DNA from: Flavobacteriales bacterium
GTDB lineage: Bacteria > Bacteroidota > Bacteroidia > Flavobacteriales_D > Crocinitomicaceae
Assembly (NCBI GenBank): GCA_003331365.1
Contig: QOQC01000003.1
Location: 1 to 46,877 of the forward strand
Reading direction: 5' to 3'
Length of the DNA: 46,877 bases
This document shows positions 16,649 through 18,224 of the stretch, piece after piece; position 1 is the stretch's first letter; each line of letters opens with the position of its first letter. The translations under genes and the position numbers were made by a program. Below the pieces are notes generated by a model. That model was not told the DNA's origin. It made no database searches and was given only the letters and a program-made list of their open reading frames with translations.

Positions 16649-17116
16649 ATGAAAATATTAGAGGTTGGAGAAACGACACCAATATTTGAGGGAGTAAATC
16701 AGAATAATGAAAAAATATCTTCTGATGATTATGTTGGGTCAAAATGGGTAATTTATTTTTACCCAAAGGACAATACGCCTGGATGTACCGCACAAGCTTG
16801 TAGTCTTCGTGATGGTTATGATGCTTTGAGAAATCATGGTATTAAAGTATTGGGTGTAAGTGCCGATGGAGTGAAAAGTCATGATAAATTTGCTTCAAAA
16901 TATGATCTTCCGTTTGCATTATTGGCCGATGAGGGTAAAGAAGTAATCAATAAGTTTGGAGTATGGGGGCCAAAAAAGTTTATGGGAAGAGAATACGAAG
17001 GAATTCATAGAGTTTCTTTTGTTGTTGACGAGAAAGGAGTGATTACCCATGTTATACAAAAACCAAAAACCAAGGATCATGCTAATGAAATACTAGGTTT
17101 ATTAAATCTAAATTAG
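16649..17116 (+). CDS. bcp: Thioredoxin-dependent peroxiredoxin of the BCP/PrxQ type
   Basis: This cytoplasmic peroxidase of 155 residues reduces H2O2 and organic hydroperoxides using thioredoxin. The peroxidatic Cys is C46 and the resolving Cys is C51 in DNTPGCTAQACSLRDG, the C-x4-C arrangement of atypical 2-Cys PrxQ proteins. Further family motifs are WVIYFYPKD before the Cys, KVLGVSADGVKSHDKFASKYDLPFALLAD split along the fold, and the C-terminal RVSFVVDEKGVI. The length is standard and there is no signal peptide. It has its own promoter and precedes recA by 55 nt, but recA also has its own promoter, so they need not be one operon. Confidence 0.95.
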   Translation: MKILEVGETTPIFEGVNQNNEKISSDDYVGSKWVIYFYPKDNTPGCTAQACSLRDGYDALRNHGIKVLGVSADGVKSHDKFASKYDLPFALLADEGKEVINKFGVWGPKKFMGREYEGIHRVSFVVDEKGVITHVIQKPKTKDHANEILGLLNLN

Positions 17117-17117
17117 T

Positions 17118-17153
17118 TCGTAAATTGATTACGATGTAGTGAGTGTACATTTG
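17118..17153 (+). promoter_or_regulatory. recA promoter (TTG-N18-TACATTTG) with a perfect 6-bp dyad over the -33 box
   Basis: TTG (17125-17127) and TACATTTG (17146-17153) are 18 nt apart, a good promoter match, with the coding start 18 nt downstream. The inverted repeat TCGTAA-attga-TTACGA (17118-17123 and 17129-17134) places the -33 TTG in its central spacer, as expected for a repressor site. Which protein would bind it is not known from this window. Confidence 0.65.
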
Positions 17154-17171: not shown

Positions 17172-18224
17172 ATGCTCAATAAAACAAACGATATGTCAAA
17201 TAAAGATGTCAATTCAGAAAAACTAAAAGCTTTAAAGCTTACAATGGAAAAATTAGACAAAACCTACGGGAAAGGTTCTGTGATGAAATTAGGAGATGCG
17301 CCGGTTGAAAAAGTCGAAGTCATTCCAACTGGTTCTTTAACACTTGATATGGCACTTGGTGTTCAAGGATATCCTAAGGGTAGAGTAGTAGAAATATATG
17401 GCCCTGAATCATCGGGTAAAACTACACTTGCGATTCACGCTATTGCAGAAGTTCAGAAGCAGGGTGGGATTGCTGCATTTATTGATGCAGAACATGCTTT
17501 TGATCAGTTCTATGCACAGAACTTGGGCGTTGACGTAGCAAATCTTTTAATCTCACAACCTGACAATGGAGAACAGGCATTAGAAATTGCGGATAATTTA
17601 ATACGTTCAGGAGCCATTGATTTAATCGTAGTTGATTCAGTTGCAGCACTGACGCCCAGAGCTGAAATTGAAGGTGAAATGGGAGACTCTCAGATGGGCT
17701 TACAGGCTCGTTTAATGTCTAAGGCTTTAAGAAAACTTACGGCATCAATAAATAAGGCTGGTTGTTGTTGCATCTTTATCAATCAACTTCGAGAAAAAAT
17801 AGGAGTGATGTTTGGAAACCCTGAAACGACTACCGGTGGAAATGCATTGAAATTTTATTCTTCTATACGAATCGATATTCGGAGATCTACACAGCTAAAA
17901 GATGGTGACGAAATTAAAGGCAATAGGGTTAAAGTGAAAATTGTCAAAAACAAAGTAGCACCTCCATTTAGAAGAGCCGAATTTGATGTGATGTATGGCA
18001 AAGGGATTTCAAAAATTGGAGAAATTATAGACATAGGTGTGGACTTGAACATATTGAAAAAGAGTGGCTCTTGGTTCTCCTATGGTGAAACGAGATTAGG
18101 TCAGGGTCGGGATTCGATTAAAAGTTTATTGTTAGACAATCCCGAATTGGCTGAAGAACTAGAGAACAAAATTAAAGAGGCCCTTGTAAAACCCGAGGTG
18201 GAAACTACGGTATTACAAGATTAA
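17172..18224 (+). CDS. recA: Recombinase A
   Basis: RecA forms filaments on single-stranded DNA for homologous recombination and repair. The 350-residue protein carries Walker [10 protein letters not shown] (77-85), FIDAEHAFD, Walker [11 protein letters not shown], the L1/L2 loop regions ([17 protein letters not shown], and [15 protein letters not shown]) and [11 protein letters not shown]. The length is normal and the C-terminus is acidic. An alternative start is the second Met (17193), which would remove seven residues (MLNKTND) and begins [11 protein letters not shown]; the N-terminal extension is not needed for the fold. A factor-independent terminator follows directly. DprA, its loader in transformation, is encoded elsewhere in the window. 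Confidence 0.97.

Follow-up and report, generated by a model that had tools for sequence, protein, structure and literature searches.

A conserved palindrome in the recA promoters of one Flavobacteriales clade: a putative damage-regulon element with a box unlike that of LexA

The promoter of recA in a Flavobacteriales bacterium carries an inverted repeat that had been singled out, from the letters alone, as a site suited to a repressor of a damage response. We asked whether this dyad is a genuine regulatory element or a product of chance, and which protein could read it. It lies in a stretch of 46,877 nucleotides (the window), in which the repeat TCGTAA-ATTGA-TTACGA is indeed present without a mismatch, and the 18 nt claimed between the TTG of its spacer and TACATTTG were counted correctly. 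The features of the locus are as follows.

16649-17116, + strand: upstream gene, an AhpC/TSA-family peroxiredoxin (open reading frame, Pfam)
17114-17138, no strand: extended palindrome TAGTTCGTAA-ATTGA-TTACGATGTA, imperfect in its outer arms (matrix built from 153 distinct sites)
17118-17134, no strand: reported dyad TCGTAA-ATTGA-TTACGA (TCGTAAATTGATTACGA), exact in the sequence
17119-17133: dyad core CGTAA-N5-TTACG, exact in 29 of the best 30 of 115 family recA loci, one mismatch in the other
17125-17127, + strand: TTG in the dyad spacer, the -33 element of the original prediction, not kept in relatives
17146-17153, + strand: -7 element TACATTTG, 12 nt past the dyad core (sequence, relatives)
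17193-18224, + strand: recA, 343 aa counted from the second ATG (Pfam RecA, E 8e-140)

The start of recA at 17193 was chosen from relatives, the mechanical open reading frame beginning at 17172, and 39 nt separate the end of TACATTTG from this start. The extended palindrome shares part of its left arm with the stop codon of the peroxiredoxin gene, and the dyad follows directly behind that codon. In the family, the frequency matrix of the 153 distinct sites gives an approximate consensus of TAGAWCGTAA-N5-TTACGWTCTA for the extended palindrome. The position right after a stop codon, together with the capability of the arms to pair as a 6-bp stem, would fit a terminator hairpin of the peroxiredoxin gene. 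Yet the hairpin reaches only -6.5 kcal/mol (z -0.73), a stability matched by 45 of 200 shuffled sequences, and no T run follows the dyad. A terminator, or a dyad arisen by chance, is a practically negligible explanation, refuted by the conservation and the promoter geometry presented below.

The assembly of the genome itself comprises 1.66 Mb in 78 contigs and is 68% complete. It holds two copies of the 12-base form of the dyad, the recA site and one at positions 6059-6075 of contig 56, which also stands just before TACATTTG; eight first-order Markov simulations of 1.66 Mb produced none. The 10-base core occurs three times, against a simulated mean of 0.125 (and of 0 for the core combined with the -7 element). 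All three copies are in promoters, with the TTTG placed equally in each, and they precede recA, a 105-aa open reading frame and a 133-aa open reading frame, the latter two both on contig 56. The 105-aa frame is divergent from a gene that we label tatC-like. Degenerate matches are uninformative: no enrichment was seen at two mismatches in the genome (64 sites versus 153 for the reversed control), nor at three mismatches in the window (16 sites versus 20.6 expected).

Conservation at recA was assessed on loci ranked by RecA similarity, ignoring the dyad. We detected recA in 115 of 120 family genomes and took the best 30 of these 115 matches; the core was exact before 29 and had one mismatch before the remaining one. 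Of the 80 recA loci from named genomes that were nearest to ours, 79 had enough upstream sequence; ten of them carried the exact core and one a single mismatch, including a Flavobacteriales UBA952 bin, whose RecA is 91% identical, and a Crocinitomix bin. The sequence AAAAGGTTGCGT before recA in Flavobacteriaceae is presumably the promoter of a divergent gene. The original prediction had offered the motif as a mark of repair genes and had allowed for mere chance if it were not kept. Since the dyad is kept before recA and stands before other damage genes such as dinB, the first reading survived and the chance reading failed. Judged from this conservation, the dyad is almost certainly a real element of a regulon.

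To follow the element across genomes we used a strict pattern, consisting of the core, 10-14 nt and TAnnTTTG. It was found in 20 of 41 genomes of the genus, where the reversed control hit one genome, and in 136 of 299 genomes of the order. The bulk of the matches came from the organism's own family (f1), with 124 of 178 genomes against 6 for the reversed control; family f3 contributed 10 of 25 against 2, and the other families 2 of 96 against 8, the control counts per family having been tallied by eye. Matches outside f1 and f3 are thus attributable to chance, as they do not exceed the reversed control. The pattern is absent from 54 of the 178 family genomes, though in several of them (L086, L089, L094) recA has the dyad in exact form together with a variant -7 element. 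The full-arm palindrome was too strict to be of use, because it matched only 3 of 396 genomes of the class, all from the same genus as our organism. On viral contigs, 111 stretches contained the strict pattern (80 listed as loci), a number that we judge to be near chance expectation by our own estimate, not by computation. Ahead of a 95-aa gene, a 57-kb viral contig (L432) bears an extended operator that is almost perfect; it is the sole scored viral site that fits the family matrix well. Altogether, the palindrome is retained at one fixed promoter spot, before recA or before a gene for a small protein, in well over a hundred related bacteria.

This small protein, of about 105 aa, was found in 176 of the 178 own-family genomes, with two matches in G011, G052 and G325 and otherwise one, and in 10 of the 25 genomes of f3; elsewhere there was one marginal match. 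In a first set of genes, the 30 best matches to a profile built from dyad-linked genes, the core was exact in 30 of 30 upstream regions, a count that is circular because the search profile itself came from dyad-linked genes. The count to trust is that of a second set of 40 further family genes picked without regard to the dyad, in which the core was exact in 34, had one mismatch in five and two mismatches in one. A dyad with at most one mismatch thus stood at 39 of 40 loci, versus 0.005 per gene in shuffles. By eye, 5 of these 40 promoters kept the T of TAnnTTTG and most read (G/C)AnnTTTG, so the -7 element of the small gene is weak as well. Such variants are over-represented in this set, however, as many TA promoters had gone to the strict pattern beforehand. 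Outside the own family, 7 genomes had both dyad and protein, 5 the dyad only, 4 the protein only and 105 neither (Fisher p 4e-6, inflated by relatedness).

The C-terminal end of the protein is conserved as (I/L/V)xA, mostly IRA. We found no Pfam or NCBIfam match near the curated cut-off and no convincing PDB match by sequence or fold; the best VIA Z of the model was 4.6 (KCTD12 H1 domain, rmsd 3.1 over 70 residues), which is nothing firm. As a guess, the protein might be a damage-induced division inhibitor or a modulator of RecA. It could also be imagined as the regulator of its own gene and of recA, since it accompanies recA under the dyad more constantly than any other protein and occurs in nearly every family genome. 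Its AlphaFold2 model (pLDDT 86.7), however, predicts a beta sheet and one long helix without a helix-turn-helix, there is no clear structural match, and genus g26 of f3 has the strict pattern with no match to the protein. We regard such a role as very improbable.

The genes behind the dyads were read for a part of all sites. Besides recA and the ~105-aa protein, they encode a 133-aa and a 101-aa protein in the genus of our organism. In other genera, they include dinB (two scanned and identified by Pfam IMS, the others assigned by eye), Cas12a, Cas9, IS1595 transposases, a C5 DNA methylase, a serine recombinase and proteins of 46-62 aa without a Pfam match. The CRISPR effectors with a recA-type dyad promoter are Cas12a at L252/L282 and L263 and Cas9 at L319. 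The IS1595-like transposase genes are those at L264, L265, L278 and L320, three by Pfam and L265 by eye. The 101-aa and 133-aa proteins recur behind the dyad in the genus (L112, L134, L195, L198; L158, L191, L192, L194), and the 133-aa protein is present in the genome studied here. At L197:1573-1953, a 126-aa protein behind the dyad ends in GDDIPF, a tail that we take to resemble the C-terminus of single-strand binding protein. In genus group g11 (L292-L315), many dyads stand in front of genes whose products look secreted or surface-like. Leaders there measure about 200-350 nt, in contrast to those of the repair genes, which suggests that some dyad sites may lie outside a repair regulon. One sigma-70-like gene begins 203 nt behind a dyad (L253/L283), and no transcription-factor gene was recognised among the genes read.

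A palindrome over a recA promoter recalls the classical LexA box of the SOS response. The original prediction noted that the dyad differs from the classical Escherichia coli and Bacillus boxes, and those boxes are indeed unlike it in both sequence and spacing. The dyad also differs from the published Bacteroidetes boxes in the portion of PMC8565304 consulted and from the box of the clade's own LexA-like genes, described below. That source, as far as consulted, described damage control in Bacteroidetes in 2021 as resting on LexA-like repressors, reported GGA-N5-TCC, CTAA-N5-TTAG and one TTAC-N5-GTAA as boxes, and noted that LexA boxes drift (PMC8565304). Its main text contains neither CGTAA, TTACG, GATTA nor WYL, and our literature search returned no match for the CGTAA/TTACG motif strings. 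In the 30 recA upstream regions, neither GGA-N5-TCC nor CTAA-N5-TTAG occurred exactly.

The regulators were searched for with PF00717, PF13280 and an HTH-S24 alignment. Of these, PF00717 was discarded as a means of detecting LexA, since it overlooked the HTH-S24 gene of several complete relatives. The window was said to lack a lexA gene, and we likewise found no S24 protein in the assembly, which is 68% complete. That absence says little, as each of the 17 near-complete relatives searched, from two genera, encodes one full-length HTH-S24 LexA-like gene; further HTH-S24 LexA-like proteins are present in other genera. Upstream of 31 distinct genes of this kind, GATTA-N5-TAATC was exact in 8 and had at most one mismatch in 21, where shuffles gave 0.6 expected, and the CGTAA dyad was found in none at the same tolerance. 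Upstream of 19 umuD-like genes, the GATTA box was exact in 5 and within one mismatch in 9, whereas the dyad was within one mismatch in one. GATTA-N5-TAATC looks like the box of the family's non-canonical LexA (L183-L227 for the HTH-S24 upstream regions, L165-L179 for the umuD-like ones). We did not find it in print, having looked in the text of PMC8565304.

The two boxes sort to different genes, because at one mismatch or fewer the GATTA box appeared in none of the 30 recA and none of the 30 small-gene upstream regions (first set), where the dyad appeared in all 30 of each. These counts bear on the idea that the clade's HTH-S24 LexA reads CGTAA-N5-TTACG as a diverged CTAA-N5-TTAG. The equal N5 geometry, the inner TAA/TTA bases in common, the presence of the protein in 17 of 17 near-complete genomes and the reported drift of LexA boxes (PMC8565304, in part) would favour it. 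The exclusive distribution of the boxes at the LexA-like, recA and small-protein genes, and the ratio at the umuD-like genes, speak against it, as does one dinB promoter (L317) that holds both boxes, as two regulators would. A diverged LexA site is in our judgement unlikely, and the dyad is, judging from this distribution, very probably separate from the LexA-like box, although the two systems are not wholly apart, since both are found at L317. With the non-canonical LexA regulon of Bacteroidetes, the dyad promoters share N5 dyads in damage promoters, targets among recA, dinB and umuD (PMC8565304, in part) and an HTH-S24 regulator encoded in relatives. They differ in that the regulator's own box here appears to be GATTA-N5-TAATC and that recA is without such a box.

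If not LexA, the regulator could be a repressor or an activator, and the geometry of the promoters bears on this choice. The distance from the dyad end to NNNNTTTG, the TTTG block of the -7 element, was 11 or 12 nt in 97 of the 98 promoters measured (30 of 30 for recA, 29 of 29 and 38 of 39 for the first and second small-gene sets); at L110 (recA) and L338 (small gene), which show a nearer chance TTTG, the regular block at 12 was counted. The distinct fetched sites of the strict pattern, which allowed 10-14 nt, had gaps of 11 nt (68), 12 nt (39) and 13 nt (1). Among 33 sites found without a -7 condition, the -7 element was present at 26 of 29 intergenic and at none of four intragenic ones. In contrast, the GATTA boxes lay 1 to 31 nt from TAnnTTTG, clustering near 6, 19 and 30 nt, as measured on the 15 boxes, out of 18, that have a TAnnTTTG no more than 60 nt away.

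The dyad had been described as lying over the recA -33 element, which is true of the organism itself, whereas its relatives do not conserve the TTG: in 67 dyad promoters, it occurred nine times at 17-18 nt before TAnnTTTG and never at 19, whereas in 205 non-dyad promoter candidates it peaked at 19 nt with 31 occurrences and occurred 59 times at 18-20 nt. The dyad promoters therefore look dependent on help, because the -7 spacing is fixed and the -33 TTG mostly missing.

A dimeric non-LexA repressor, covering -33 and blocking polymerase until damage inactivates it, was the initial idea, and the place of the dyad at -33 and its sharing among damage genes are in keeping with it; fixed spacing could also arise with a repressor obliged to cover -33. 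This fixed spacing and the unconserved TTG nevertheless suit a built-in activator better. Moreover, the LexA-like boxes, taken as repressor sites, vary in distance, and no transcription-factor gene was recognised behind those dyads, a part of the total, whose downstream genes were read. From this analysis of the promoters, the dyad is probably an activator site, and we hold the repressor only as a tentative second reading.

We then considered which protein might be such an activator. The genome encodes one WYL protein of 336 aa with wHTH-WYL-WCX architecture (contig C58, L477:1244-2251). Its predicted model (pLDDT 82.6, pTM 0.56) aligned with full-length DriD (8tpk; VIA Z 17.5, rmsd 14.6 over 257 residues) and with the DriD C-domain (7tzv; VIA Z 18.5, rmsd 4.2 over 192). 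By predicted fold it is closest to DriD, followed by BrxR and PafBC; by sequence profile PafBC came first and then DriD, whose match was restricted to the C-terminal part. The presence of a WYL gene does not discriminate, because 284 of the 299 order genomes have one, including families without the dyad, and no dyad within two mismatches was found upstream of 19 WYL genes. A four-residue gap in the wing of the wHTH is shared by all 27 proteins compared from f1 and f3 and is absent in 12 of 14 others; the two exceptions from other families (L504, L507) were poorly aligned and left out of the tree. Families f1 and f3 form one clade (support 99/98), which holds the dyads in excess of control. The gap weakly supports the WYL protein as the reader, but f3 genera without a strict dyad share the wing change, which may be plain phylogeny. 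In our own reading of the alignment, the recognition-helix core STIEKDL contains no arginine, whereas DriD is described as using arginines in recognition (PMC12340889, in the portion consulted). Taken with the predicted fold, this makes the WYL protein a possible, albeit somewhat doubtful, reader of the dyad.

The comparison with DriD, a WYL-domain activator of Caulobacter crescentus, extends to the promoters. In the parts of these sources consulted, DriD sites lie across poor -35 elements and keep a constant distance from -10 (PMC12340889), and recA is among the targets of its regulon (PMC11804915). Here too, a palindrome lies over a poor upstream element at a fixed distance from the downstream one, damage genes are concerned (DriD's own, as far as these sources were consulted, include a small cell-division inhibitor), the CG steps are 13 bp apart in both consensuses by our own count, and a protein with a predicted fold closest to DriD is encoded. 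The half-sites differ, ATACGAC-N7-GTCGTAT as opposed to TAGAWCGTAA-N5-TTACGWTCTA, as do the phylum and the promoter type, and the system here is known from sequence and predicted fold. The likeness to the mycobacterial PafBC promoters lies in the LexA-independent damage activation of recA and in a related WYL protein; those promoters are read by sigma adaptation, with PafBC inserting between promoter and sigma domain 4 (PMC11804915, as far as consulted). PafBC differs in being a heterodimer and in using a -26 motif instead of a palindrome over -33.

The overall explanation that we prefer, at roughly even confidence, is that a dimeric regulator has its site as an integral part of the promoters of a damage regulon in one Flavobacteriales clade, an explanation to which the conservation, the fixed -7 distance, the use by several genes and the separateness from the LexA-like box all point at the level of sequence. 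A dimer would bind the dyad in the promoters of recA, of the ~105-aa protein and, in some genera, of dinB. It would act as an activator astride a weak -33, helping RNA polymerase as DriD does. The single WYL protein, as the likeliest reader, would sense single-stranded DNA arising from damage and switch recA on. Alongside, a LexA-like protein would repress umuD and lexA itself via GATTA-N5-TAATC. Joined into one scheme, the damage response would be split: a LexA-like repressor on itself and umuD, and an ssDNA-sensing, DriD-like WYL activator on recA, dinB and the small-protein family via a palindrome of ~25 bp replacing -33, with CRISPR effectors, a methylase and insertion sequences recruited to the second switch. 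We put this complete scheme forward as speculative.

The evidence thus indicates that the palindrome is genuine and conserved, and serves as an element of promoters in a damage regulon, with a box unlike that of LexA. It would add to the Bacteroidetes a second promoter element, linked to recA, whose anatomy is clear and whose clade is defined, together with a candidate reader and a small protein conserved as its partner, and it bears on how recA is controlled where its promoter is without a LexA box. With genes for Cas9, Cas12a and transposases also standing behind this element, damage signalling may be tied to defence and to mobile DNA; if the split response held true, with defence and mobile genes on the second switch, damage or phage attack would raise repair and defence together.
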